Below, in pieces: positions 31,566-56,514 of a DNA stretch of 62,290 nucleotides (position 1 is the stretch's first letter; each line of letters begins with the position of its first letter). The notes beneath the pieces are model-generated. The model was not told the DNA's origin and did not search any database. It worked only from the letters and a program-made list of their open reading frames with translations. The position numbers and the translations under genes were made by a program. The stretch is from a virus, in the IMG/VR virus record IMGVR_UViG_3300017963_000048, positions 1 through 62,290 of that record. One strand, written 5' to 3'.

Positions 31566-33116
31566 CTACATGGCCCAACCACCAGCACCTAAAAGATGAT
31601 ACCAGCCCCAATAGGCTGCATCTGCCAAGTCAAATGGCTTGGTTTTTGGGAAGCGCTCTAAAGCAGATTCTAGTGCATGCGTGGTGCCAATCACGTGGAT
31701 GACTTCACCGCGCTCGTAAGCGTGCAGCATCTGCTGACTCCTGTGCACTTTGCTACCGTGACCAGCACCAGCTTTGGCCTGAGCAAAACCAACACCATGA
31801 TTTTCTGGTATCTCACCAGCTTCAATCATAGTGACTAGCAGCTTCTCAAAAATAGATTCCCACGTGTCACCACCCTGGTCAGTTTCCACGCCTACAGTGC
31901 TGAAGCCATATTCCACAGCCTTCAAAATGGCTCTGCGTAAAACATCATCTGGGGTTGTAATGGATTCCCAACTGAAAAGCCGATAGAGTGTGCCAGTTGC
32001 GTCAACACCATCAGCTTGAATGCCCATGCTGTCACTGTCATCAGTGCTGGTGACAGCGGGGTCACACCACACCGAACCATAGACTAGATCAGGCAATTCT
32101 TTGAACGTGCAGCGCTGCCATTCAATGTGGTTCCAAATGCCACCTGGGGGTGCTTTCACTTCATGCTGTGACTCTTGTTTGAAGCTGGTCAAGCCATCAC
32201 GATTTATGATGTTTTGACAATCTTCAATGCTCTGCCCTTCCCACGTGGCACTGCCACCCATGATGACATATTTTCGCCGGTTTGTTTGTGGATCCGTCTG
32301 GATTTCAGTCACCAAATTATCAACAGCTTTGTGTGGCCCATTCACAGTTCGATCAAGCAAAAATTCAGCGCGCCCATCCACCAGCTGTGAAGCAATTGAA
32401 TTAGGATGAATGAGGTTTTGCACAAACATCACCGCAGCATTATTGCTGGCTGCTGGCAGCAGCGTGCGTGTGAGAGTTTCAATTTTTTTGGTGACAGTTT
32501 TCACACTGTCATGCTTGCCGTCAATGTCATCAATGATTAACCAGTCAGGACGGGCATCACCCACCTTTGACGAGCGCGCAGCTTTGTCAAGTCCCACAGC
32601 TTCAACCACAAAGCCACTGGCAGTGCGCAGAAAGTTACGTGTCCAACCACGTGACTGGCCAAACTTACCGACCTCGCGCCTGCTCATACTTGGATAGTAA
32701 TATTCCATCAATGGTGTTTCTAGCATGTCCGCAATATTAATGATGCGCTTGTCAGCTTGGTCTTGTGTCTCTTGAATATACCAACCGTACCGGCGTGCAG
32801 CCAAACATCCAATCATGACAGTGGCAGCTTCACAGATGGTGGTTTTACCACCACCACGCGGCCAAATGGCCACATAAGGAAAGGGGCGCACATCGGGTTG
32901 AATTGACCAAACATGCTTGACCAATGACTCGTGACGCGCCGCGAATGGTTTGCGTTTGATGTTTGGCAAGACTTTTTCCAGCCAATCGTCATAACCCGCA
33001 AAGCGCGTGTCTTTGTCATTCAAGTCAGGCACTTCTAGTGCGTCAACTACCAACTGACGAAGTGATTGAAATGAAGTCTCCTTGGATGGCTTGTAAAGCT
33101 GATCTATCTCGAACAT
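31566..33116 (-). CDS. terL: Terminase large subunit (516 aa)
   Basis: Packaging motor and nuclease. Walker A WPRGGGKT at residues 85-92, Walker B WLIIDD at 192-197, followed by the coupling region. The nuclease domain has acidic residues in VWCDPAVTSTDDSD, VETDQGG and the C-terminal FDLADAAYWG, matching the RNase H-like fold. Length is in the normal range. It overlaps the small terminase gene by 74 bases. Together they start the late operon. Confidence 0.95.
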   Translation of the reverse strand: MFEIDQLYKPSKETSFQSLRQLVVDALEVPDLNDKDTRFAGYDDWLEKVLPNIKRKPFAARHESLVKHVWSIQPDVRPFPYVAIWPRGGGKTTICEAATVMIGCLAARRYGWYIQETQDQADKRIINIADMLETPLMEYYYPSMSRREVGKFGQSRGWTRNFLRTASGFVVEAVGLDKAARSSKVGDARPDWLIIDDIDGKHDSVKTVTKKIETLTRTLLPAASNNAAVMFVQNLIHPNSIASQLVDGRAEFLLDRTVNGPHKAVDNLVTEIQTDPQTNRRKYVIMGGSATWEGQSIEDCQNIINRDGLTSFKQESQHEVKAPPGGIWNHIEWQRCTFKELPDLVYGSVWCDPAVTSTDDSDSMGIQADGVDATGTLYRLFSWESITTPDDVLRRAILKAVEYGFSTVGVETDQGGDTWESIFEKLLVTMIEAGEIPENHGVGFAQAKAGAGHGSKVHRSQQMLHAYERGEVIHVIGTTHALESALERFPKTKPFDLADAAYWGWYHLLGAGGWAM

Positions 33117-33825
33117 TGGCTTGAATACTCGACATGAGGGCTGACAGCATCAGCGTGACTGCACTGACTTGAATCAACACTCCTTGATCAATTTCAAGTT
33201 GCCTTTCAACTTGAATTAAATTTCTCTTATGCTTTTGGAATTTTTCAATCTCAATCCACTGCTGATAATCTTTGCTTCCTAAGCGTACCAAGTCAAAAAT
33301 TTCAGCCACCAGCTCTGTGGTTTTGTCACGTGCAGCTGCCACACGTTTAACGCGCTCAGTAGCATCATCCAAACGATTGGCACGTTCAATAGCTTTTTGC
33401 AATCGATCAATGTGATCCAAGCGTGTTTGCATTTGCAAAAATATTTCTTCACTACTTGACCCATTCAAATTGCGATAGAGTTCACTTAAGCGTGCTTCAG
33501 TGATCGCAATTTCATTTTGCAGCTGCATGACATCACCACGCTGCAAAGCAGACTCATAATCTTGGGCATAGCGTTTGGGGAGATAGGCCGAGTGTATGCC
33601 AGTTTTTGTGGCTGGTGCTGCAATGCCTTTCAAAGCAGTGCCCCCATGTGCTCTGCACTTTTGCTTGTCACCACTTTGTTTGGTGGCCAGCCCCATGCAC
33701 TGCCGTTTGTTGCGTCCACTCCAAGCTGTGCACCTACGCTTCCCAAAAAAACGGTGATTTTTGGGGAAATCTTTTTCGGGCACAAAATCTTTGGGCTTGG
33801 TGGTTTTACCTGTTTTTTTTGCCAT
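33043..33825 (-). CDS. terS: Terminase small subunit-like protein with HGG motif (260 aa)
   Basis: N-terminal residues 30-75 carry CTAWSGRNKRQCMG and KCRAHGGTALKG, then a SAYLPKRY segment. This is the Cys/HGG pattern found in phage proteins encoded just before the large terminase. The remainder (100-250) is coiled-coil. The overlap with the large terminase supports the small-subunit (DNA recognition) role, though HGG proteins have not all been shown to be terminases. The start follows CAGAGGTAAAC. Confidence 0.7.
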   Translation of the reverse strand: MAKKTGKTTKPKDFVPEKDFPKNHRFFGKRRCTAWSGRNKRQCMGLATKQSGDKQKCRAHGGTALKGIAAPATKTGIHSAYLPKRYAQDYESALQRGDVMQLQNEIAITEARLSELYRNLNGSSSEEIFLQMQTRLDHIDRLQKAIERANRLDDATERVKRVAAARDKTTELVAEIFDLVRLGSKDYQQWIEIEKFQKHKRNLIQVERQLEIDQGVLIQVSAVTLMLSALMSSIQANVRDRSALQAIQGDFISITSSVGS

Positions 33826-33958: not shown

Positions 33959-34606
33959 TCAAGCTTCTAAGATACTTTCATCTTTCACCAAGTAGATGGC
34001 TGGCAAGCTGATCACGGTGACAATGGCTTTGAAGATGATCTGGCCACTGGTCAATTGAAGTGCAGCCCATACTGGCATGCTGTCACCACCAAAAAATGGT
34101 GGTAAGAGCACAAAGGCCAGCAGCGCAAATGTGAGCGAGTCAATGGGCAAAGATACTGCATTTGACATCAATACCCTTGACCATTGAGGCATGCGCGGCA
34201 ATTTCATTTTGACCACGTGAAAAATCTCAGTGTCTATGCTTTCACTTAAAATTTCAGCTGTGATGCTGCCAATGGTGATGGCTGGCACAATGGCAAAGAT
34301 GGCACCCCACGATTCAGCCAAACCATAAAAGGCTGGTGCTGGCAGCTGGCCAATGGCCCACAGATAGGCTGCTTGCACCACATTCAGGACACCAGCAGTT
34401 AAAATGGCTGCGCGTGCCCAATCACGTCCCAAGCGCTTATGGATGACATCGCGCAGCGTGAAAGTGAAGGCAAAAATGAACGTGCCTCCGGGAATCACAA
34501 TGCCCCACAACTCCACCAGCTTGGTGGCACCAATGTCAGCAATGGCTTGGCAAATGACATAAGCACCAATTAAATACACAATCGTTCTAATCGTTTTTCG
34601 ATTCAT
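33959..34606 (-). CDS. yhhQ: YhhQ/VUT-family queuosine precursor transporter (215 aa)
   Basis: Six hydrophobic segments and the family-typical GGTFIFAFTFTLRDVIHKRLG stretch near residue 40, SITAEILSESIDT near 117 and LPIDSLTF near 155. YhhQ imports preQ0/preQ1 across the inner membrane. In a phage with QueC and DpdA, it would feed extra 7-deazaguanine precursor to DNA modification. The start follows TTAAAGGAGTTTT. It is the last gene of the 39-34 kb operon. Confidence 0.88.
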   Translation of the reverse strand: MNRKTIRTIVYLIGAYVICQAIADIGATKLVELWGIVIPGGTFIFAFTFTLRDVIHKRLGRDWARAAILTAGVLNVVQAAYLWAIGQLPAPAFYGLAESWGAIFAIVPAITIGSITAEILSESIDTEIFHVVKMKLPRMPQWSRVLMSNAVSLPIDSLTFALLAFVLLPPFFGGDSMPVWAALQLTSGQIIFKAIVTVISLPAIYLVKDESILEA

Positions 34607-34615
34607 AAAACTCCT

Positions 34616-34987
34616 TTAAAATATAATCTCAATCTGGCCGTGGTTGGCAGACTTGCCCGTTAAACTAAAAACTCCTATGCGTGCCTCATCAATCACACTA
34701 CACACATAGTTGAAAATCGTCAAAGCTAATTCTTCAAGCGTAGTGGGTTCATCTGTAATCATGTGCAAAGCTTGGTCAAACTCTGCCCAATCTGGCACCA
34801 ATGACCAATCAGCATCTTTTGACTCTTTGGCAGCCGGGTGCATGCACACAAATGACACCAACAGCAGCGCAGAAATGGCCGGATCATGCTGGTTTGGATC
34901 AGTCAGCTTGCAAGTGGCTTGCAGCTCTGTTTGGTATTCAATCATGGGTGCAGTGTTGTGGGGAATTTCTAACTTAATATATTTCAT
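34616..34987 (-). CDS. Possible T-fold protein (FolB/QueD-like?) (123 aa)
   Basis: The second half (VPDWAEFDQAL...TTLEELALTIFNYV...ARIGVFSLTGKSANHG) has the helix-strand pattern of T-fold enzymes such as dihydroneopterin aldolase and 6-carboxytetrahydropterin synthase. The zinc-binding HxH of QueD is not visible. It overlaps the glycosyltransferase gene by ATGA and sits in the deazaguanine cluster, where a pterin-type enzyme would make sense. Treat as a hypothesis; a structure prediction would decide. Confidence 0.4.
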   Translation of the reverse strand: MKYIKLEIPHNTAPMIEYQTELQATCKLTDPNQHDPAISALLLVSFVCMHPAAKESKDADWSLVPDWAEFDQALHMITDEPTTLEELALTIFNYVCSVIDEARIGVFSLTGKSANHGQIEIIF

Positions 34988-36030
34988 CTATGTCTGCTCC
35001 TGCGTACACTTTTGAAAGTGAGCATCTGGTTAAAAACCAAGTCCACACCAGCCAGCTCTGTGGCCAGCGCATGGGCATTGGGTGCGTGCAGTTGCACAAA
35101 GTCATGCCATTCATCATCTGTGAATGTCAAACCACTTAAAATGGCATCTAGCATTTGATTGTAATCTGCAAAGCGGTATCGTTTAGGCAAGCCAAACACA
35201 TCATAGATTGGCTGATCAGCCAGCAGTGGTGTCAAGCCAAAAAAAAGCGCATTGACAACACTATATGGAAACACTTCTTGGCGTGCATCAGCCCACAAAT
35301 AACCCCCACCACTGCACAGCTGCTTTAAGCGTGACAGAGGCATGAAGCCAGTGAAGGTGATATTTGGATAAAGGCCATTCAGCGCTTGACTCCCTGTTGC
35401 CAAACATTCAATGTTTTCTCTTGCAGCCAGCTTTGCAAACTCAATAAAACGATCTTTGCCTTTGTCATAATCCCACCGGGCAGCATAGATCACGCGCTTA
35501 GCTGCACGCCAATTGACTGGCTTCACGCTGAAGTCAATGGGGTAGGGTTTTACCACTGGCCTGGCATAATCGGGCAGCAAGCTGGCTGCATGTTGACTGC
35601 CCACTATAATCTTGTCATAGCAATGGCATAGATACTCGTCAAAATTAGCAGCATGGGGAATCTGCTCAGCAACGTCACCCACCATGTGTGTGCTGCCATG
35701 ATATAAGGCCACCAGCTGTTTGTTGCTCAGGTCTAATCCAGCTGTGAAAATCTTATACATCAGCAAGGGCAGGAAGGGTGCCCAATAATCTGTGCATAAA
35801 ATCACGTCTGCCCATTCTAGCATTTGACAACTTGGCACTGAAGCAGACCAGTTTTGCACTTGCGTGCGGAAGTTTTCAGGCTTGTAGAATGTTTGATCAT
35901 AACCAAAGCGCTGCACATAAACATTTTTCGCAGCTGCCAGCACTTCCATGACTGGCTGCATGACCAATTCTTCACTGTGGCCAATTTTGCCTAACATTAA
36001 AATATTGACATCATTTTGCTTGGTTGGCAT
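34984..36030 (-). CDS. GT-B glycosyltransferase-like protein (348 aa)
   Basis: Pattern of a family GT4-type enzyme: N-terminal strand (NILMLGKIGHSEE), LVALYHGSTHM, DKIIVGSQHAASL. The C-terminal nucleotide-binding half has RVIYAARWDYDKGKDRFIEFAKL, NITFTGFMP and WADARQEVFPYSVVNAL, including an expected E-x7-E-like end. The ATG at 36030 has a perfect CGGAGGTGATTGAAT ribosome-binding site inside the end of gat-queC. Translationally coupled to gat-queC and DpdA, it may add a sugar to the modified base, or glycosylate another target. Confidence 0.72.
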   Translation of the reverse strand: MPTKQNDVNILMLGKIGHSEELVMQPVMEVLAAAKNVYVQRFGYDQTFYKPENFRTQVQNWSASVPSCQMLEWADVILCTDYWAPFLPLLMYKIFTAGLDLSNKQLVALYHGSTHMVGDVAEQIPHAANFDEYLCHCYDKIIVGSQHAASLLPDYARPVVKPYPIDFSVKPVNWRAAKRVIYAARWDYDKGKDRFIEFAKLAARENIECLATGSQALNGLYPNITFTGFMPLSRLKQLCSGGGYLWADARQEVFPYSVVNALFFGLTPLLADQPIYDVFGLPKRYRFADYNQMLDAILSGLTFTDDEWHDFVQLHAPNAHALATELAGVDLVFNQMLTFKSVRRSRHR

Positions 36031-37375
36031 ATTCAATCACCTCCGAAAACTCATTCATCGCAAATGCAGTTTGACGCATAAAACAAGGCCCACATTCACC
36101 ACAGTGCAGTGGCCCATCTTCATAGCATGACCACGTTTTGTGCATAGGCGCATTCAGTTGCACACCCAATCGCACGATTTCATGCTTCATCAAATTGCCC
36201 ACAGGCATCTCAACATCTATTCTGGTGTTGACGTTCACACTGTAGGGCACCAAGTCAGCAAACAGCTTGGTGAAAATCATTTCATTGTCGGGGTACGCGC
36301 CGGCCTCTTCCAAATTATTGCCCAGCGCAATGACATCATAATGATTAGATTCCGCATAAGCCAAAGCCATTGCATAGAAAATCAGATTCCTGGCCGGTAC
36401 CCATTCATGCGCAAATTCAGCACCAGCAGCACCATGCTTCACAATGCTGGCTGCTGGATTGATCAAGCTGGTTTCCATGCCAGCAAAGACGGCCCGGGTA
36501 TCCACAAAGTCACAAGAGCAGCCCATTTCAAGTGCACAAGCCACCACTGCCTCACGCTCTCTGGCACTGGCTTTGCAGTCATAACCAAAGTGGAGCAAGC
36601 ACACATCATGCCCCGCGTGCACATATTGCTTGGCCGTCACCACTGAATCCAAGCCACCACTGCAAATGACCACCACACGTTTGACACCCGTTTTCTCTGG
36701 CAGCAGTGGAGTTTGCACGATTGACAAATCTGGCTGCACGTCAATGTAGGTATAAGCTGGCAGCTTTTGAATGTTGTCAGCTTCAGATTCCCGCAAGTAT
36801 TCTGGCAAGCTGGCGAATAATAAGAAACCAGCACCACGCAGCATATAGAGTGGTTTATAGTTGCAGGCCAAACTTAAAATACTAAGTTCTGGTGTTGACT
36901 TCATGATGGCCAATGCAAAGCTGCCCACAATTTCATTAGTGAGTGACAGATAAGGGTCATGCTGCAAAAACCAATAAGGCAACACCGCACTGTCAATATC
37001 TGATGTAGGATCTCTGTCAAGCTGCGCCCATAATTGCTTGTCATTGGCAATGATGCCATTATGACTGACGGCCACATGCCCCACAGCACTTTTTGCTGTA
37101 AAGGGCTGCACGTCATTCAGTGTTTTGGTTTTCACAAATTCGGTGGTGGGCTCAGCCCGCGTGTTGGCTATGATGATGTCAGGCACGCCAAGGTAATCAG
37201 CTGCCAAGCCACATGCAGCCAGGTCACTGCCAATGTGCTTGATCTCTTGGCCATCGCTGGTGATCAGTCCCACGCTGTCACGTCCGCGATCATTGGCACG
37301 CTGCAAAGTGCGCAAAAATCTTGCATAAACTTCAATATCTTTGTGATTAGTCTGTAAAGCCACTATACTGCACAT
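36011..37375 (-). CDS. queC: Gat-QueC: class II amidotransferase fused to QueC (454 aa)
   Basis: N-terminal class II glutamine amidotransferase: the nucleophile Cys2 follows the initiator Met (MCSIVAL), then RGRDSVG, IIANTRAEPT and SHNGII. From about 230 comes QueC: PP-loop CSGGLDSVVTAK, LHFGYDCKAS and the zinc site HCGECGPC near 425. QueC makes preQ0 from 7-carboxy-7-deazaguanine. Gat-QueC fusions are known from archaea, where they replace ArcS, and from phages whose DNA carries 2'-deoxyarchaeosine (as in Enterobacteria phage 9g). The start follows TCAGGAGTTGTTAGC. All key motifs are intact. Confidence 0.92.
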   Translation of the reverse strand: MCSIVALQTNHKDIEVYARFLRTLQRANDRGRDSVGLITSDGQEIKHIGSDLAACGLAADYLGVPDIIIANTRAEPTTEFVKTKTLNDVQPFTAKSAVGHVAVSHNGIIANDKQLWAQLDRDPTSDIDSAVLPYWFLQHDPYLSLTNEIVGSFALAIMKSTPELSILSLACNYKPLYMLRGAGFLLFASLPEYLRESEADNIQKLPAYTYIDVQPDLSIVQTPLLPEKTGVKRVVVICSGGLDSVVTAKQYVHAGHDVCLLHFGYDCKASAREREAVVACALEMGCSCDFVDTRAVFAGMETSLINPAASIVKHGAAGAEFAHEWVPARNLIFYAMALAYAESNHYDVIALGNNLEEAGAYPDNEMIFTKLFADLVPYSVNVNTRIDVEMPVGNLMKHEIVRLGVQLNAPMHKTWSCYEDGPLHCGECGPCFMRQTAFAMNEFSEVIEYANQAK

Positions 37376-38298
37376 GCTAACAACTCCTGATAACGTTTCT
37401 CCACATTCAAAAAACCTTCTACAGCTGAAGCCACATAAGGAAATGAAGCGACAACCATGTACATTTTAGGACCAACCCCACGCGGACCAATCATTTCACC
37501 ATAATTTTTTTGCATCCATTTGATCATCAGCCAATAGGCCATGCTTGAAAGATAGGCATAATAATAATGTGCATCTTTGGTTTTACTGTGCTCAAAAAAT
37601 TCAGTAAGGTCAACGCCGAGGGGTTCGAGCAAGTGCCACAGCTGCAAAAACTTGTTTCTGTCAAAGTCACGATTCCTGCGCTGCATGGTGAATTGATTCA
37701 TGGTGCCAAACTTATAATCAAAAACCTGAATGCGCCCGAATACCGGCGCACTCATCCACGTGCTGCTGTCAAAACTATACCAAGGGAAGCGCTTCAAAAT
37801 CTCCCAAGTAGTCACGCCGAATGCGTGATATTTGCAGCCCGTTTCTTCAGCAATTCTGAAAGCATCCACAAAGCGTGACTGCGCACCTTTCGACATCAAA
37901 CTGGTGCCTGCAATGCCACCAATCGCAATGTAGTCAGTTTGGGCAGCATATTTTTTTAACCATTTTATATCTTCACCAGCATGGTAGACTGGCAGCGTAT
38001 GCACCCCCATATCTTTTAAAATCAGCCAATTGTCAAATGACTTGGCTGCACTTGTAACCACATCTAAATTCGATATCGCAGTGAAATAACCATCCCACTT
38101 GGTCAACCAAATTGCATAATCTTTGGGCGAAATGTGAAACCCCTGATTCCCGGCTGTGAAAGCACCACTGTCAGCAAACAAGTCAAAGTCAACATGATCA
38201 CGGAATGGGTCAAAAATTTCACTGAGATTTTTGTTCTTAGCATAATGATATGAAATTAGGATGCTAACTTTAGGCTTAACTGGTGGTGTGCTAGTCAT
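37363..38298 (-). CDS. dpdA: DpdA-like DNA tRNA-guanine transglycosylase homologue (311 aa)
   Basis: TGT-fold enzyme that swaps guanine in DNA for a 7-deazaguanine. Phage DpdA hallmarks are visible: LISYHYAK near 15, DLFADSGAF at 39-47 (catalytic Asp), a second Asp in ISNLDVV, VYHAGED, YIAIGGIAG and YHAFGVTTWEILKRFPWYSFDSSTW. The zinc site of tRNA TGTs is absent, as in phage DpdA. Overlaps gat-queC by 13 bases. With Gat-QueC and YhhQ it forms a compact DNA-modification module. Confidence 0.88.
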   Translation of the reverse strand: MTSTPPVKPKVSILISYHYAKNKNLSEIFDPFRDHVDFDLFADSGAFTAGNQGFHISPKDYAIWLTKWDGYFTAISNLDVVTSAAKSFDNWLILKDMGVHTLPVYHAGEDIKWLKKYAAQTDYIAIGGIAGTSLMSKGAQSRFVDAFRIAEETGCKYHAFGVTTWEILKRFPWYSFDSSTWMSAPVFGRIQVFDYKFGTMNQFTMQRRNRDFDRNKFLQLWHLLEPLGVDLTEFFEHSKTKDAHYYYAYLSSMAYWLMIKWMQKNYGEMIGPRGVGPKMYMVVASFPYVASAVEGFLNVEKRYQELLACAV

Positions 38299-38300
38299 GC

Positions 38301-39149
38301 TTAGCTCAGATCAAGGTCAATGCTGTCAGCTGAGATGTCAGCATTTTCTAGGCTGTGCGCACCTGGTGCGCCAATTTGCTTGGCAGCTGCCAGCAGCACT
38401 GCATGAAACTTGTGCCCTTCTTCCTGGCCTTCAACTTGCTCCATCAGATCAGCCAATAATTCTTCTGCCTCTTGGGGCACACTCATGCGCAAAATTGGCC
38501 AGCGGTCACTATCCACTACTTGGCCAATTTTACGACTGGTTTCTTCTAATTCCGGAAACTCAAAATTTTTCAAAGTTTGCAAGCGCTGCAAATCTTCCAC
38601 ATTTAAGCTGATGATCGCACCACCAGCATCAGCTGTTTTGCCAACTATCTCGGTATATTTGTCAAAATCCCACATGCGTGCCATGTCAGAAAAGGCAAAG
38701 TCACCACCCCCCATTGTCAAGTTATTGCTGTCAATTGCATAGGCCATTGCAGCTGCGCGGCTGACAGCATCAGTGCCAAAGAGAATAGACATCACCCACA
38801 GCCCGTTGCTTTTCAAGCTGGCCACACCGCGTGGGGTGTCTTTGCGCTCAGCTTTGCGCCACTCCTTTTGCAATAAGTGCAAAGCTTCAATGCGCCCATT
38901 TCCAGCTTTGATGGCACCTAATTCACCTTTGACATTAGTCAAATTGCCGTCAAATTTTGGCAACTCTTGAAAACCATGTTCTATAATAGATGCTTGCACT
39001 TGCTTTATATTGTGCAGTTTGGGATTATCTTCCCAAAGCAGCTTGACAGCATCATTGACTTTGACCAGCCCAATCCAGGGCATGTCATTTTCAATGATGT
39101 CATCTTTTTGAATGTTAGTGAATGAAAGATCAGCGACCAAGCTTGACAT
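38301..39149 (-). CDS. ParB/sulfiredoxin-fold domain protein (282 aa)
   Basis: The N-terminal ~110 residues show the ParB-N pattern: LWEDNPKLHNIKQVQASIIEHGFQ followed by AIKAGNGRIEALHLL, i.e. the nucleotide-binding GxGR box. No KorB-type HTH is seen; the rest is helical, ending in a short acidic tail. Such stand-alone ParB-N proteins often accompany DNA-modification genes. The ATG at 39149 follows GTGGAGGCACAAAAA; the long upstream extension is non-coding. A separate full-size ParB is encoded at 51813. Confidence 0.75.
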   Translation of the reverse strand: MSSLVADLSFTNIQKDDIIENDMPWIGLVKVNDAVKLLWEDNPKLHNIKQVQASIIEHGFQELPKFDGNLTNVKGELGAIKAGNGRIEALHLLQKEWRKAERKDTPRGVASLKSNGLWVMSILFGTDAVSRAAAMAYAIDSNNLTMGGGDFAFSDMARMWDFDKYTEIVGKTADAGGAIISLNVEDLQRLQTLKNFEFPELEETSRKIGQVVDSDRWPILRMSVPQEAEELLADLMEQVEGQEEGHKFHAVLLAAAKQIGAPGAHSLENADISADSIDLDLS

Positions 39150-39228
39150 TTTTTGTGCCTCCACACTGTTAGGTATTCTTGATCTTACTATAAAACCAGC
39201 ACAACATGCAAGCGCTGACCAATAAAAT

Positions 39229-39242
39229 GTTGCTATAGCAAC
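39229..39242. repeat. parS-like palindrome site 7 (TA centre)
   Basis: GTTGCTATAGCAAC with flanking T/A; the only copy with a TA centre, hence a perfect self-complementary 16-mer. Confidence 0.9.
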
Positions 39243-39254
39243 ACCAGTGAAGCA

Positions 39255-39277
39255 CAAAAATGCGGTTTTCCCGCATT
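39255..39277 (-). terminator. Intrinsic terminator in the 39.15-39.56 kb gap
   Basis: Perfect 8-bp stem (AAATGCGG / CCGCATTT) with four-nt loop and T-run on the minus strand. A related sequence (GTGAAGCACAAAA..GCGG..CCCGCATTT) occurs at 18630-18670 downstream of the sulfotransferase gene. Confidence 0.75.
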
Positions 39278-39377
39278 TACAGCAGCACACTCTAATGCTG
39301 CATAGAGTGGCCACCACTGCGCTGCACTGGCTGCTTAAAATGTTGAAGCCAAGCACTTGGCTTGGCTTCAATGAATG

Positions 39378-42486: not shown

Positions 42487-43101
42487 TTATGTGATCAGCT
42501 TCAGCAGTTCATCTGCTCCTTCAGGGCCAACACCAGTGATGCGAATGACACCATCACCACTGAAACCTACCTCCCACTCTGGCACGCTTTCAAATTCATG
42601 CAATTGATGTTTGCGCGTGACCATGATGATCTCTTTATTATGACTTCCAATGTAACCAGCAGCAGCACGCTGCGTGACATCGTACCGGCCAGCAATGACC
42701 ACATCCACATGCTGCATGATATAGGCCACATGCTGGTTGGTATTAATCATGGATTCAAGTTGCAAGCTGTTGAAGCCAGTCAGCACAATGATTGACAGGT
42801 CAGGATGATAATTGCGCAAAGCTTCAACCAGTTCGGCCACAGCTTCAGCTTGCTGCAATGGTTCGCCACCACTGATGGTGATGCCATCCAAGCCAGCACT
42901 GCGCTGTGCTGGTGACTGCAAATTCAGCATGGCCAGTAGTTCGCCAGTGCTCAGCACATCACCACCAGCTTGGCTGTGTGTTGGTTTATTGAAGCAAAAC
43001 GCACAGCCAAGCGTGCAGCCTTGATACCAAACTACCATGCGCTTCCCGGGTCCATTGGCCACGCTGCGTGGCATGATGTCATGAATATTGTGGGTCACCA
43101 T
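42487..43101 (-). CDS. Radical SAM / single 4Fe-4S cluster protein, NrdG-like (204 aa)
   Basis: CTLGCAFC gives the CX3CX2C cluster site at C29, C33 and C36. ISGGEPL (SAM-binding GGE) is near residue 77. VVIAGRYDVTQR and GSHNKEIIMVTRKH match the small activating-enzyme branch (NrdG, and the stand-alone proteins encoded beside DUF1257). It could activate a glycyl-radical enzyme, but no such partner is encoded here. It overlaps the DUF1257-DUF2997 gene, so the two probably act together. The start follows TTGGAGCAAACCAC. Confidence 0.8.
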   Translation of the reverse strand: MVTHNIHDIMPRSVANGPGKRMVVWYQGCTLGCAFCFNKPTHSQAGGDVLSTGELLAMLNLQSPAQRSAGLDGITISGGEPLQQAEAVAELVEALRNYHPDLSIIVLTGFNSLQLESMINTNQHVAYIMQHVDVVIAGRYDVTQRAAAGYIGSHNKEIIMVTRKHQLHEFESVPEWEVGFSGDGVIRITGVGPEGADELLKLIT

Positions 43102-51812: not shown

Positions 51813-53846
51813 GTGAAAACAAAAGATATTCAAATTTCAAAACAGAGCTTGACCAGCATCAAAGAGTCCCGCTATCAGCAGCACCAGCGTGACACCAGCA
51901 CTGAGGAATACAAAACACACTTGGCTGCTGTAGCACTCAGCATTGCCACTGATGGTTTGAAGCAAGTGCCCCAAGCCAGATACAATGCAGCTGGCAGCGG
52001 TGGCCATTATGAATTGGCTTTCGGTAACACACGCTTTGCTGCTTTTAAGTTGCTCGACAGCTTGACAGAGCGCAAGCGCAAAGTGAAAGAAATTGAAGGT
52101 ATCCCTATCAGTGATGAACTCTGGTATGCCACCCGCAAGCGTGAGGCTGAATTTGAAGCCATGCCACTGGTGGTGGCTGAAATGTCAGAGCAAGAATTTT
52201 TTGAAGCTGGCATGATCGAGAATTTGCAGCGCAAAGCACTTGACACACTTGAGGAAGCGCAAGCCTACCAATTTTATATGCAACACTTTGACGCAAACAG
52301 CAATGCTGCTGGTTTGAAGTTTGGCAAAAATCCAAGCACCATCCGTGGCATGGTGCGCTTGCTCAATTTGCCACAGCCAGTGCGTGAAGCGCTGCGTGAT
52401 GGTTATCTGGCACAAGAGACAGCACGAAAGCTGCTGCGCTTGCAAGATATTGTGCCCGGGATGAATACCATCACCAAAACAGTGCTAGAAAAAGCCCGCG
52501 ATGGTGTGATCACACAACCTGAAGTAGATCGGCTCATAATTGGTGGCCTGCAAAATTGTAAACACGTGCAGCTGCTGTGGGGTGACTACACCACCGGCAC
52601 CACTGGCAACCCCAAAGCTGGCAAAGGATTGTGGGAATTGAATTGGCAGCAAAAAGTGGTGCGCAGATGGACGGCCAACAAAGTCATGAAGCTGCTGACT
52701 GAGATCGGCGCAGCGCAGGAAATTTTGCGTGAGATCATCAAAGCTGCACAAGATGAAAGTGCCAATAACAAATGGGCACAAGATATCTTGATTGACATTA
52801 TTGAGGAAGTGCGTGACCACAATGCCACTGATAACGAACTAGAGGAGAGTTTTGGCATTGGCCAAGTCAGCAGCAGAACCATTAGAGCCATGATTAGACC
52901 GATGCCCTGTGACCAGTGTCCGCTGCACGTCAAATTTGACAATTTGCATTTTTGTGGTGCTTCAGTGTGTCACAGCGCAAAAATTGACGAGTTCAAAGCA
53001 TATGAATTGCAGCGGGTAGCTGAGAAACTTGGCTTGCCAGTGTATGACAGCAAAAAAGTGGCCAAGCCACGTGCATTTGAAGTGGCCACAAAACATGTGG
53101 GGCCTAAGTGGATGGGCAAAACAGAAGAAACAGAATATGTGCAATGGTTTGAAGATAAAGCTAAGCACTTATATATCATGGCCACCAGCAAAGCTGCTGA
53201 TCCTTATGACTTCACTAACTCGCACTTTGTGCAGCTGATCAGCATCAGAGATGAATTGCAGCCCGAATACTTAATAGCACAAGCAGAAGCTGCTGGTGAA
53301 ATTGTGCAAGATGTTGAAGTGGTTGGTGGCCAAGTGACTGTGATCACTGAGCAAACCAAAGAAGCTGAAGCGCTTGAAGATGAACATGCACAGCGCATGC
53401 GTGCAGAGCGTGAAGCTAATGAAATGAGGCAACACACGCACGAGCAAGCCACAGCATTGGTGTTCACTGAAGTGGCACCCTGGCTGGCTGCGCAGTTTCC
53501 TGAAGGCACCAGTCACTTTTGGATTAGCTTGCTGGAATACCAAACTGACGACTGGAACGTGCGGGAGATCATGACACCGGATGAAGATCCCGGCGAAATG
53601 ACACCAGCTGAATTAGAGCAATGGCAGCGTGACACAGCGCAAACTTATGTGCTCATGCACATGCTAATCGGTGACATGCAGCAAAAATATGACAATTATG
53701 TTAGCAACATGGCTGAAGTTTACGAGCGCTTAGATGAACTGATTAACCAATATCTGGGTGACACTGGTGTGGTCATACCAGATTGGGCTGAAGTTTGGGA
53801 AGCCAATGAAAACAGTGAAGCTGAAGAGGCTGAAGCCAGTGAATAG
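51813..53846 (+). CDS. parB: Large ParB/Spo0J-family partition protein (677 aa)
   Basis: N-terminal ParB fold, with YHYELAFGNTRFAAFKLL-type box near 72-90 (FGNTRFAA resembles the GxRR/GERR nucleotide box). The canonical IENLQRKALDTLEEAQAY is at about 133-150. Then a KorB-type HTH lies at 165-205 (KFGKNPSTIRGMVRLLNLP, LRDGYLAQETARKLLRL). From about 370 a Cys-rich part (CDQCPLHV, FCGASVCH) is followed by an acidic, coiled C-terminus; this is far longer than chromosomal ParB (about 300). No ParA is encoded. The GTG start follows GAGAGGAAAACAAA. Proposed to bind the dispersed palindromes. Confidence 0.85.
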   Translation: MKTKDIQISKQSLTSIKESRYQQHQRDTSTEEYKTHLAAVALSIATDGLKQVPQARYNAAGSGGHYELAFGNTRFAAFKLLDSLTERKRKVKEIEGIPISDELWYATRKREAEFEAMPLVVAEMSEQEFFEAGMIENLQRKALDTLEEAQAYQFYMQHFDANSNAAGLKFGKNPSTIRGMVRLLNLPQPVREALRDGYLAQETARKLLRLQDIVPGMNTITKTVLEKARDGVITQPEVDRLIIGGLQNCKHVQLLWGDYTTGTTGNPKAGKGLWELNWQQKVVRRWTANKVMKLLTEIGAAQEILREIIKAAQDESANNKWAQDILIDIIEEVRDHNATDNELEESFGIGQVSSRTIRAMIRPMPCDQCPLHVKFDNLHFCGASVCHSAKIDEFKAYELQRVAEKLGLPVYDSKKVAKPRAFEVATKHVGPKWMGKTEETEYVQWFEDKAKHLYIMATSKAADPYDFTNSHFVQLISIRDELQPEYLIAQAEAAGEIVQDVEVVGGQVTVITEQTKEAEALEDEHAQRMRAEREANEMRQHTHEQATALVFTEVAPWLAAQFPEGTSHFWISLLEYQTDDWNVREIMTPDEDPGEMTPAELEQWQRDTAQTYVLMHMLIGDMQQKYDNYVSNMAEVYERLDELINQYLGDTGVVIPDWAEVWEANENSEAEEAEASE

Positions 53847-54063
53847 AGCAGAGCGCATGGTGTGGAAACTGGACAAACTTGGTTATGTGATTCACTGGCC
53901 ACTGCCAGGAGAACACACAGCACACATTTTTCCCAAAGATCGCAGCATTGAAGCTGCCAAACCAGCCTACGAAATCACGCATGCTGGTGAAGCTGAGCGT
54001 GCCCAGCTGGTTGAAAACTTGATTGAAAGATTGACAGCTGAAGCGTTAGAAAAGATCACATAG
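53839..54063 (+). CDS. Hypothetical small protein after ParB (74 aa)
   Basis: GTG start overlapping the ParB stop by eight bases (GTGAATAG); the ATG at 53857 is an alternative. Basic N-terminus, helical C-terminus. No family recognised. Co-translation suggests a ParB accessory role. Confidence 0.55.
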   Translation: MNRAERMVWKLDKLGYVIHWPLPGEHTAHIFPKDRSIEAAKPAYEITHAGEAERAQLVENLIERLTAEALEKIT

Positions 54064-54078
54064 ATTCAAGCCAGTGGT

Positions 54079-54092
54079 GTTGCTACAGCAAC
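54079..54092. repeat. parS-like palindrome site 11
   Basis: GTTGCTACAGCAAC in the centre of a 30-bp perfect palindrome (CCAGTGGT arms), between the ParB operon and the lipoprotein gene; it has no T-run, so it is not a terminator. Confidence 0.92.
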
Positions 54093-54115
54093 ACCACTGG
54101 CCAAGCTGGTGAATT

Positions 54116-55084
54116 ATGAAAAATAGACTTTATGCACTTGCGATCACAATCTTATATCTGGCAGCTGGCTGTGTGCCACTGCCAGAAGCACCACCAGCCA
54201 ATGCAGCTGATGCCGTGGCACGTGTCACGCAGCAAGCTTGGGAACTGAGTGGCACCAGCACTGCGGTCAGTGTCATGCAGCGTGCAGCCACAGGCACTGC
54301 GATCATTGGCACTGCACGTGCTGAAAACCACCACGCCACACAAACCCAAGAAATGATTGACTTCGCTAACGATCAAGCCACCGGCACCGCGGCCAGTGCC
54401 ACACAGCAAGCCCAAGCTGCTTTGAACGTTTTCAACACGCAGCAGGCTGAAGCTGAAGCCACAGCCACACAGCAAGCTAATGAGCAAGCCACAGCCGTGC
54501 AAGCAGTGCAAAGCACGCTGATCAGTGGCCAAGCCACAGCCACAGCTGAAGCTGAAGCACGTGCTGAAGTCAAAAGCAATGTGATAGGCGCACTAGTGGT
54601 GGTGCTCTGCACTGGTTTGGCAATTTTGGGCATTTGGTTTGCGTGGCGATTAAGCCAAGCTAAACTGCGCAAAGCTAACTTGATCTTAGATGCACGTGGC
54701 AATCCCACACACCAGCTGATCAATACCAAAGACGGTTTGACGGTGATCGACTTGCAGCGCAGCGCAGCACCACACTTCACTGTGCAGCGTGATGGCCAAA
54801 TTCTAGTGCCTCCGGGACTCGATGCCCAAGCACAAGCCGAATATCTATACCAGTTGACCATGATAGAGTTGGTCAAAGCAGCCAGTCAACGTGGTGCGGT
54901 TGACTTGCAAACCATGCAAGATATTATGAATAAAGCACGCCAAAACAGCACTGCTGAAGCACCAGCTGAAGCTGTGCACGCTTTACCCGCCAATATCGTC
55001 CCAGTGCCACCAGATGACCAGCGTGTGAGCACTTGGGTGCAAGAAACGATTAATGACCAAGTGATTGAAGGAATGAGCAAATGA
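54116..55084 (+). CDS. Lipoprotein with inner-membrane span and cytoplasmic domain (322 aa)
   Basis: Signal peptide with lipobox LAAGC (Cys19). Next come a long Ala/Thr/Gln linker with ATATQQA repeats (coiled coil, residues 30-155), then one membrane span (about 157-180) and a soluble domain including VIDLQRSAAPHFTVQRDGQ. The lipid anchor plus a second span makes a loop outside the cell. Linkers of this kind are typical of Chloroflexota. Coupled to the FtsK-like gene by ATGA, so it may anchor that ATPase. Confidence 0.7.
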   Translation: MKNRLYALAITILYLAAGCVPLPEAPPANAADAVARVTQQAWELSGTSTAVSVMQRAATGTAIIGTARAENHHATQTQEMIDFANDQATGTAASATQQAQAALNVFNTQQAEAEATATQQANEQATAVQAVQSTLISGQATATAEAEARAEVKSNVIGALVVVLCTGLAILGIWFAWRLSQAKLRKANLILDARGNPTHQLINTKDGLTVIDLQRSAAPHFTVQRDGQILVPPGLDAQAQAEYLYQLTMIELVKAASQRGAVDLQTMQDIMNKARQNSTAEAPAEAVHALPANIVPVPPDDQRVSTWVQETINDQVIEGMSK

Positions 55085-56514
55085 ATACTCAGACGAACTA
55101 TCCCCCAAGCACACCACATGTGCTGCCATTGCAAAAACGTGCAATGGTGCAAGCACACCGCGCAGCCTACAGCTTCAGTGCTGCGCTTAGCAGCATGGGC
55201 TTTGTGCCTGAATATGAGGCACAATATGTCACCAGCATCAATGGAGTAACACTGCTTTTTTTGGTAGTTGATCAAAGACGCGAGAGCAAGCAGCACAGTG
55301 CAGCTGCGCTGCAACTACTCAAAACCCGGGTGCCCTGGCCGGTCACGAAAATCAAGAGCACTGGAAAAGTTGTTTATGCCGTCACACTGCATGGTCAAGC
55401 CACGCTGCCAGATATGCTGCCATTGGTTGACATTCAGCACGATCACGTTTTGTTTGGTGCAAATCCTTGGGGCAAGCAAGTCAGTGAAAGCTGGCAGCGC
55501 TTTGGCCATGCTCTAGTGGTAGGCATGTCACAATATGGCAAAACCAACTTTCTGCGCTTAGTAGTTTTCCAAGCACTGAAACAAGGCCACTTGTGCTGGT
55601 TGGGTGATCAGTCACAAACAGCATTCCCCATGCTGGTCAATGCGCCCCATGTGGCTGCTGTGGCCAAGCGTGACCAATATGAAAACATGGTCATTGAAGT
55701 GCATAACGAAATGCAAAAGCGGGAAGCGCTTTTTGCAGCAGATCAATGGTTCCCTGAAAACTTGCAGCAATATAATCAGCATGCAGAGCAGCACTTGCCA
55801 CGTGTGCTGCTGGTGCTTGACGAGTTCAATGGTGCGGTCAAACATTGGGGCAGCACCAGCACGTTTTTCAAGCTGGTGGATGCGCTTATTTGTGAAGGTT
55901 TGAAATTTGGCATCCACGTGGTGCTGGCCAGTCAAGAGTGGCAAAAATCAACACTGGGCAATCCACGTGAGCAGATGCATACCATTATTGGCTTTCGCAT
56001 GGCCAATGCTAATGTGGAGCACAGCTTAGGCATTGCGGGTGCTGCTAAAATCCCACCAGATGGCAGAGGCATTGCCATCAGTGCGCAGCATGGCATTTTC
56101 AAAGCTTATTTCATGCGCAAAGAAACTTTGGTTAAGTTGGCTGGTCAACTTTTCAGTGATCACATTTTGCAAGTGCTGCAAGCTGCTATTAATCAAGAGG
56201 GGCAGGGGAGTGGAAAGGTCACACAAGCTTTCCTCAAGCTGCATGGTTTTGGCACTGCTGAAGCACGCAACACCATCAATGAATGGGCTGCACGTGGTTG
56301 GCTTGAAAAGCGCAGCGATTTAAATAATGCACATTATATGACCCCTTTGCTGAAGGGTTTGGTGGCTGAAAACCTGAAAACACCACAAACCGTGGAAACC
56401 CAGAAAACCAACTCTGACGATGATGAAATTATGATCACAAACTTATTAGAGCCGATTGACTTTGAAGAAAACCAATCTGAAAACCTGAAAACCTTACCAA
56501 ACATTGAGGAGTAA
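55081..56514 (+). CDS. FtsK/HerA-like DNA translocase ATPase (477 aa)
   Basis: Walker A GMSQYGKTN near 150, sensor-type DQSQTAF, Walker B LLVLDEFN near 245, and a later LASQEWQKSTLG (hexameric FtsK/HerA/VirD4-like family). The N-terminal 100 residues are a separate beta domain; no membrane segments. The C-terminal 100 residues include FLKLHGFGTAEARNTINEW, winged-helix-like, as in the FtsK gamma domain. It could pump DNA for partition, conjugation or packaging-related tasks. The adjacent genes code for membrane proteins. Confidence 0.8.
   Translation: MNTQTNYPPSTPHVLPLQKRAMVQAHRAAYSFSAALSSMGFVPEYEAQYVTSINGVTLLFLVVDQRRESKQHSAAALQLLKTRVPWPVTKIKSTGKVVYAVTLHGQATLPDMLPLVDIQHDHVLFGANPWGKQVSESWQRFGHALVVGMSQYGKTNFLRLVVFQALKQGHLCWLGDQSQTAFPMLVNAPHVAAVAKRDQYENMVIEVHNEMQKREALFAADQWFPENLQQYNQHAEQHLPRVLLVLDEFNGAVKHWGSTSTFFKLVDALICEGLKFGIHVVLASQEWQKSTLGNPREQMHTIIGFRMANANVEHSLGIAGAAKIPPDGRGIAISAQHGIFKAYFMRKETLVKLAGQLFSDHILQVLQAAINQEGQGSGKVTQAFLKLHGFGTAEARNTINEWAARGWLEKRSDLNNAHYMTPLLKGLVAENLKTPQTVETQKTNSDDDEIMITNLLEPIDFEENQSENLKTLPNIEE

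Follow-up and report, generated by a model that had tools for sequence, protein, structure and literature searches.

A gene at positions 34984–36030 (minus strand) of the IMG/VR virus record IMGVR_UViG_3300017963_000048, the whole 62,290 bases of which were analysed and are called the window here, encodes a candidate glycosyltransferase (GT) lying among 7-deazaguanine genes. It is very probable that this GT is functionally coupled to the 7-deazaguanine pathway and, with a probability of roughly 0.6, its role is to add a sugar to a 7-deazaguanine in the phage DNA. The minus-strand run to which it belongs comprises, in order, dpdA, gat-queC, the GT gene, an open reading frame (ORF) of 123 amino acids (aa), yhhQ, an ORF at the small-terminase position and terL. 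The original prediction had assigned these tightly packed genes to one pathway with a glycosylated 7-deazaguanine as its product; the single pathway is strongly supported by a reverse test starting from the GT, by recurrence in gat-queC operons and by a within-genome control, while the glycosylated base in DNA stands as the best explanation of the product. The sugar-bearing bases known from phages are mostly hydroxymethyl-pyrimidines, and the phage 7-deazaguanines known so far carry small groups. From a GT within deazaguanine operons one would expect many large phages to have bulky guanines decorated with sugars. If true, this could explain why such genomes resist restriction and CRISPR, and type IV restriction enzymes would gain new substrates. 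Nucleoside mass spectrometry offers a direct test of this expectation, and there are GT-bearing isolates whose hosts can be cultured (P. aeruginosa PAO1, S. meliloti and Synechococcus elongatus PCC 7942).

Linkage of the glycosyltransferase to 7-deazaguanine genes

The GT gene is an intact ORF of 348 aa, running from an ATG at 36030–36028 to a TGA stop at 34986–34984; an in-frame TTG at 36036 is an alternative start, with which the product would have 350 aa. The ATG sits 20 nt inside gat-queC, whose ORF stops at 36011, and the upstream sequence reads GGAGGTGA-TTGAAT-ATG, with a Shine-Dalgarno sequence at 36044–36037 (minus strand, also inside gat-queC, recognized from the sequence) and a spacer of 6 nt. 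This exact 8-mer is found twice on the minus strand of the window and not at all on the plus strand. At the other end of the gene, the ATGA at 34987–34984 is common to the GT stop and to the ATG of the following gene. Coordinates and sequence agree with the predicted start inside gat-queC and overlap onto the next gene, and this placement is more than chance, since relatives elsewhere occupy the same kind of cluster.

Relatives of the GT were not commonly found away from 7-deazaguanine genes, either in phage records or in metagenomic loci, a pattern on which the original prediction depended. In a tblastn search of 50,697 phage records, the window GT matched four (three Xanthomonas PhiXhv phages and Erwinia Ep032), and with its relatives as queries the family was found in 20. 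All eight of the records examined, which fall into six groups (PhiXhv-15, Ep032, PA5oct, PAC2, ACP17, Phosso, X1 and BUCT-ZZ01), have the gene in a preQ0/TGT/Gat-QueC cluster. A scan of IMG/VR with a profile of the ACP17, PA5oct and Phosso GTs gave 51 loci, in which Gat-QueC, QueE, FolE, QueD, DpdA and the divergent transglycosylase TGT2 were taken as core genes when they lay within 8 kb of the GT. These genes were recognized with purpose-built hidden Markov models (HMMs), whose seeds include ACP17, which is the same as locus L096. At least one core gene was present in 45 of the 51 loci, or in 41 of 44 without the near-identical L096, L104, L111 and L119–L122, and the near-identical contigs L118–L121 have a QueD-like ORF alone near the GT. 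By gene, the 51 loci hold this QueD-like ORF (p17812) in 43 cases, FolE in 35, QueE in 34, TGT2 in 32, QueD in 15 and a MocA-type oxidoreductase in 6. The distance from the GT to the core genes, calculated for the 44 loci in which both a GT and a core gene were called, near-identical contigs included, has a median of 600 bp and a maximum of 3,475 bp, and in these same loci every core gene (118/118) is on the strand of the GT. Both GT relatives found in bacterial or archaeal contigs of metagenome-assembled genomes (MAGs) also belong to deazaguanine clusters (2/2).

This linkage bears on another role for the protein. Many phage GTs serve virion or host-surface functions, and the window GT might do the same and lie in the operon by chance. 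In keeping with such a role, the available portion of a paper on a deazaguanine-bearing vibrio phage clade lists a GT in another island, together with lipid A genes (PMC12028318). The linkage in the 45 loci and the eight records, however, is not shared by other proteins of similar domain content. In 13 whole records, PF00534 gave 13 matches, five of them family GTs and eight others; none of these eight (0/8) is near a cluster, each being at least about 44 kb from the family GT, although the control is unequal in sensitivity, the family GT going undetected by PF00534 in 8 of the 13 records. In addition, the highest 19-residue hydropathy value of the window GT is 1.57, with no transmembrane-like stretch. 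PF00534 matches nothing in the window record besides the GT, and no other glycosyltransferase or sugar-nucleotide gene was found among the 24 extra-operon proteins scanned with PHROGs (out of 72 ORFs of at least 50 aa). A sugar on the virion, which the original prediction had kept as an alternative, is thereby disfavoured, and modification of the virion or host surface is very improbable.

The association has also been followed from the gat-queC side. A Gat-QueC profile scan of IMG/VR was restricted to the best 80 of 162 relatives, and 6,442 ORFs from 84 loci (these 80 plus L003 and L005–L007) were screened with the GT profile. The profile was clear in L005 and L006 (L005 being one of its members) and in L008, L010 and L076, so that the GT is present in three of the 80 gat-queC loci, within the operon each time. 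L008 mirrors the window operon, with DpdA, Gat-QueC, a GFO/IDH/MocA-type oxidoreductase, two tandem GTs (29–30% identical to the window GT), a 105-aa ORF standing where the window has its 123-aa ORF, and YhhQ. The order in L010 is FolE, Gat-QueC, oxidoreductase, GT and DpdA, and in L076 DpdA, Gat-QueC, a further ORF, oxidoreductase, GT, QueE and FolE; the FolE and QueE genes of these two loci were named by eye, and some served as HMM seeds. In a Gat-QueC tree of 84 rows, from which the copies L001, L002 and L006 were omitted, the window and L008 are sisters, and the five GT-bearing tips amount to four changes, at least two of them forced by starred branches.

Fold, conserved residues and predicted reaction

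A soluble GT-B glycosyltransferase is the best explanation of the protein. The match to PF00534 (Pfam Glycos_transf_1) is weak (17.6 bits, E 0.0028; below the curated cut-off of 26.4 bits), scans of the protein with PHROGs and NCBIfam gave no match, and PDB searched by sequence returned nothing useful. Though the Pfam score is weak, the GT-B assignment of the original prediction is supported by an AlphaFold model made from a five-row alignment (mean pLDDT 74.8, pTM 0.71), which has this fold, and by 158 PDB matches of the model in Foldseek with E ≤ 0.001. The closest fold is that of BshA (VIA Z 21.3), and other matches include the UDP-Glc:tetrahydrobiopterin glucosyltransferase GlcT, whose acceptor is guanine-like, and SenB (VIA Z 19.5 each), as well as T4 alpha-glucosyltransferase on DNA (1y6f; VIA Z 18.1, 296 residues), with identities of 10–14% in the structural alignments. 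A family alignment of 51 sequences was also built, including second GTs and omitting the near-identical contigs L096, L104, L111 and L119–L122 and pieces of up to 300 aa. In this alignment H111, P164, R185, K190 and E252 are invariant (51/51), and D81, D119 and Y276 are present in 50 of the 51. We take the acceptor-side His, the R..K donor motif and the first Glu of the EX7E motif to have the roles that such residues play in GT4 enzymes (PimA/BshA).

The proposed reaction would start with the import of preQ0 by YhhQ, as suggested by the lack of any match to FolE (PF01227, PF02649) or QueD/PTPS (PF01242) in the window record. DpdA would swap guanine in the phage DNA for the 7-deazaguanine, Gat-QueC would turn the nitrile into the archaeosine or amide type, and the product of the 123-aa ORF, a probable T-fold protein, may have the 7-substituent as its target. 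The GT would then move a hexose or an N-acetylhexosamine from a host nucleotide sugar onto the 7-deazaguanine, probably in DNA, in the manner of T4 AGT on hydroxymethylcytosine. The acceptor, the sugar, the atom of attachment and the timing and order of the GT step are inferred. The coupling of the GT to transglycosylase genes, seen in both of the cluster architectures described below, favours glycosylation at the DNA level. Alternatively, the GT might glycosylate the free 7-deazaguanine base or nucleotide before its insertion by DpdA, in the way that TGT places queuine in tRNA, which we consider unlikely. Small-molecule GTs (BshA, tetrahydrobiopterin GlcT and SenB) are among the closest folds, in keeping with a free acceptor, and a free base derived from preQ0 has been proposed as the acceptor of the huimycin GT, which is encoded with FolE, QueD, QueE and QueC genes (PMC7439116, in the part available). 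On the other hand, the GT is coupled to the insertion steps (dpdA/gat-queC and TGT2) besides base synthesis, and the window lacks FolE and QueD. GTs of the T4 type that act on DNA use the polymer as acceptor, which also speaks against a free base. The fold match to the tetrahydrobiopterin glucosyltransferase, together with the FolE and QueD/PTPS-like ORFs beside the GT in many large phages, would further suit a small-molecule glycoside of a pterin or preQ0, for example a decoy or an inhibitor, in place of a modified DNA base. Such a product is improbable, since the QueE (34/51) and TGT2 (32/51) genes of the same clusters point to deazaguanine insertion and neither FolE nor PTPS is encoded in the window.

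Several observations weigh against the glycosylation of a 7-deazaguanine in DNA by this family. The second acid of the EX7E motif, E in 46 and D in 4 of the 51 sequences, is replaced by N (N260) in the window GT alone, and for this reason the protein is termed GT4-like and not a GT4 member. The substitution would fit a GT-fold relic or a DNA-binding factor devoid of transferase activity in the window phage; this is very improbable, as H111, R185, K190 and E252 are intact and invariant, and the ORF is intact with a strong Shine-Dalgarno sequence. With regard to the linkage, in 2 of the 51 loci, L127 (uncut) and L113 (cut at the GT), the GT stands without a linked gene, and the phage records examined are 8 of 20, leaving out PhiXhv-12, PhiXhv-16, the second ACP17 record and nine PA5oct relatives. 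No family GT was found in 77 of the 80 gat-queC loci, some of which have cut flanks. Since L008, L010 and L076 were found with a gat-queC query, they document recurrence and do not constitute a reverse test, and GT-only scans of the window type re-found L008 alone. Among other searches, scanning IMG/VR for the window GT as a single sequence or with a first profile turned up no relative, no stretch of a six-GT alignment was conserved enough, IMG/VR scans by the window type and the L010/L005 type re-found only L008 and L010, none of 51 pattern matches in a window-type search of genome contigs was a relative, and a plasmid search for the GT gave no match. The Gat-QueC tree shows no clustering of the GT label, with 31 of 500 shuffles as low, which fits repeated gain or loss, on few data. 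In the tree of the GTs themselves, a branch of 9.3 changes per column (support 100) sets {window, L076, L008a, L008b} apart from the remaining sequences. Given this very long branch, small and large phages may each have recruited their GT from among related GT4 enzymes; two recruitments would render the linkage between GT and deazaguanine genes convergent, not weaken it. Finally, PhiXhv-15 carries a gene of the thymidylate synthase family (PF00303 3.1e-98), the family to which hydroxymethylases belong, so a hydroxymethyl-pyrimidine acceptor is possible for this phage. Neither the window nor the L008, L010 and L076 contigs, which may be incomplete, gave a match to PF00303.

Cluster architectures and comparison with known systems

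The GT occurs in a small-phage architecture (DpdA, Gat-QueC, optionally a MocA oxidoreductase, one or two GTs, a T-fold protein and YhhQ) and in a large-phage one (TGT2, QueD-like T-fold ORF, GT, FolE and QueE), the latter represented by L096–L146, L093–L095 and L149–L151. Profiles of the two GT types align with a probability of 99.1% (E 1.3e-18) over 194 columns spanning the conserved motifs. TGT2 has the motif DSGG.Q in all 30 rows longer than 350 aa and is labelled as a transglycosylase in the record of phage X1. Its profile match to DpdA is weak (probability 56.7%, E 1.1e-4), and the ACP17 protein matches NCBIfam tgt_general below cut-off (4.6e-7), while NCBIfam gave no match for TGT2 of PA5oct. 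The Pfam TGT family was absent from five of the seven records searched, and PhiXhv-15 and Ep032 give a 12.9-bit partial match elsewhere. The conserved QueD-like ORF (p17812/phrog_17812) retains three His in 38–39 of 39 sequences and E190-D191 in 39 of 39, and its profile matches that of QueD with a probability of 82.7%. Taking these clusters together, there is about an even chance that sugar on 7-deazaguanine is an undescribed and widespread class of phage DNA hypermodification, with at least two architectures and with some lineages tailoring the sugar further.

Sugar-related genes lie beside several of the GTs: a PIG-L deacetylase (L005), GFO/IDH/MocA oxidoreductases in several loci and a nucleotide-sugar dehydratase (L130). 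In PhiXhv-15 and Ep032, from both of which the DpdA of phrog_887 is absent, the order is Gat-QueC (PF06508 4.4e-49 in PhiXhv-15), PIG-L deacetylase, GT and then a GFO/IDH oxidoreductase. BshB and MshB of the BshA/MshA thiol pathways are PIG-L deacetylases, and in these Xanthomonas and Erwinia jumbo phages the GT gene comes after a PIG-L deacetylase gene; a deacetylase next to a BshA-like GT suggests conversion of N-acetylglucosamine (GlcNAc) to glucosamine on the base. BshA and MshA are GT4 enzymes that include the best structural match, but a different acceptor is expected for the window GT.

Some other genes were noted in these neighbourhoods. The region upstream of Gat-QueC in PhiXhv-15 (L005:438-5603) encodes a protein of the GNAT acetyltransferase type, has an ORF that bears the label leucyl/phenylalanyl-tRNA-protein transferase and holds another that weakly matches DUF5591 (ArcS domain; E 0.052); these genes may tailor the base or sugar further. 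The dehydratase/epimerase of L130 (L130:10205-12591; GDP-mannose-dehydratase family, PF16363 1.1e-53) overlaps a second, very divergent GT (7e-6 with the GT HMM). Weak matches of the same HMM to second ORFs within the cluster are found in L106, L130, L140 and L150, and L142 has two GT pieces. The tandem GTs of L008 (L008:5413-7331) share 44% identity and perhaps make a disaccharide. A gene of phosphoribosyltransferase type is present in 18 of the 51 GT neighbourhoods (for example L135:9491-10012; PF00156 on one representative), possibly for base salvage, and BUCT-ZZ01 has a labelled xanthine-guanine phosphoribosyltransferase near QueE and QueD. Locus L147, filed as a Pacearchaeota MAG, contains a phage-type TGT2/QueD/p17812/GT/FolE/QueE cluster and is probably a mis-binned phage.

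Among known systems, that of phage 9g is one of the closest. As far as the available excerpts go, E. coli DNA acquires dG+ through the dpdA and gat-queC of this phage, and YhhQ is a preQ0 transporter carried by some phages (PMC6884629). As in the 9g-type system, DpdA and Gat-QueC are adjacent in the window, and a base of the preQ0/G+ type is expected in the DNA (PMC6884629, same excerpts). Unlike the FolE/QueD/QueE-bearing 9g type, the window has genes for a GT and a probable T-fold protein in the interval from gat-queC to yhhQ, and FolE, QueD and a clear QueE are missing. Another comparison is with the T-even hydroxymethylcytosine glucosyltransferases AGT and BGT, with which the GT has the GT-B fold in common (T4 AGT on DNA being the match of Z 18.1 given above), while its predicted acceptor is a 7-deazaguanine. 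In the huimycin cluster (huiB–huiG), the GT HuiG adjoins preQ0 synthesis genes, and the addition of GlcNAc to a preQ0-derived base has been proposed, but the product is an antibiotic, the acceptor a free base, and no TGT/DpdA is among the seven genes, according to the sections available (PMC7439116). HuiG and the window GT are likened here by gene context and proposed product and not by homology. The tRNA-queuosine glycosyltransferases QTMAN and QTGAL also glycosylate a 7-deazaguanine nucleoside within a nucleic acid, as proposed for the window GT, although in the available text their targets are hydroxyls of the Q cyclopentene in animal tRNA (PMC12518689). The N-terminal Pfam domain of the QTMAN type is not among the three Pfam matches of the window GT at E ≤ 1.

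In the literature, among the matches listed and in texts that were available in part, without the central 2023–2024 work on phage 7-deazaguanines and virus DNA glycosyltransferases, no GT was reported in a phage 7-deazaguanine cluster. The main text of the 2019 paper on phage deazaguanines has no word beginning with "glycosyl" (PMC6884629), and that of the PhiXhv phage paper has none beginning with deazaguanine, QueC or glycosyltransferase. A review of jumbo phages, in its available portion, covers deazaguanine systems including that of PA5oct without tying them to a GT and treats GTs under polysaccharide clusters (PMC7824862). In a vibrio phage, dPreQ1 has been shown by mass, as stated in the part of the paper available (PMC12028318).

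Other genes of the window

The gene dpdA (37363–38298, minus strand) codes for a DNA guanine transglycosylase of 311 aa (phrog_887, 2.1e-39) with DSGAF and DSSTW motifs, the DSGA being conserved, and tblastn with it matched 233 phage records at E ≤ 1e-5. The next gene, gat-queC (36011–37375, minus strand), encodes a fusion of glutamine amidotransferase and QueC of 454 aa (PF06508 9.5e-49, PF13537 1.3e-11, phrog_10428 3.9e-103), and tblastn at E ≤ 1e-10 matched it in 85 phage records. These PHROGs and Pfam results confirm the names of both proteins.

The 123-aa ORF that follows the GT (34616–34987, minus strand) had no match in Pfam, PHROG and NCBIfam scans. Its best model from a two-row alignment (pLDDT 75.1; the others 66.6, 42.0, 42.0 and 40.2) is a T-fold with the strand-strand-helix-helix-strand-strand arrangement, as in QueF-Like, QueD and FolE. 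In the PDB this model is best matched by 5jyx, an archaeosine synthase of the QueF-Like type (VIA Z 9.7 over 95 residues, root-mean-square deviation 3.4; Foldseek E 1.9e-3, with no match reaching 0.001), and the next folds are GTP cyclohydrolase I, PTPS/QueD, DHNA and QueF (VIA Z 8.0–9.2). Because of the T-fold model and its QueF-Like top match, the protein probably belongs to the chemistry of the 7-deazaguanine pathway. In PDB searches by sequence, the ORF matched GTP cyclohydrolase I alone (E 0.15), and its counterpart in L008 had six matches (E 0.57–2.5), GTP cyclohydrolase I included. Cys26 is also found in the L008 ORF, in a two-row alignment resting on position and 26% identity. It would face Cys21 of QueF-Like, presumably the catalytic Cys in thioimide formation with preQ0, if the start of the structural alignment were extended gap-free. 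The relationship to the 105-aa ORF in L008 is uncertain, since phmmer with the 123-aa ORF found no match in the 84 loci. A plain QueD was considered for this ORF and set aside: PF01242 has no match in the window, and the two-row profile fits neither QueD nor p17812.

Downstream of it are a queuosine-precursor transporter gene of yhhQ/queT type (33959–34606, minus strand; 215 aa, PF02592 2.2e-29, 63% identity to yhhQ of L008), the ORF at the small-terminase position (33043–33825, minus strand), which is named by place, and terL (31566–33116, minus strand; phrog_38). A radical SAM gene at 42487–43101 (minus strand) is NrdG-like (TIGR02491 3.6e-28, below cut-off), and no NrdD partner (PF13597) was matched in the record. 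This gene was rejected as a confident QueE because it scores as NrdG-like; the purpose-built QueE HMM also matches it weakly (7.6e-6). Directly upstream of dpdA, the ORF at 38301–39371 (minus strand) is paralleled by a homologue in the equivalent position of L008 (L008:1673-2416; 31% identity). It is ParB-like by eye, without a Pfam or PHROG match, and in phage Saguaro a gene labelled ParB-like adjoins DpdA. ParB-like and FtsK/SpoIIIE-like proteins, as in phage-plasmids, are encoded at 51813–56514 (plus strand).

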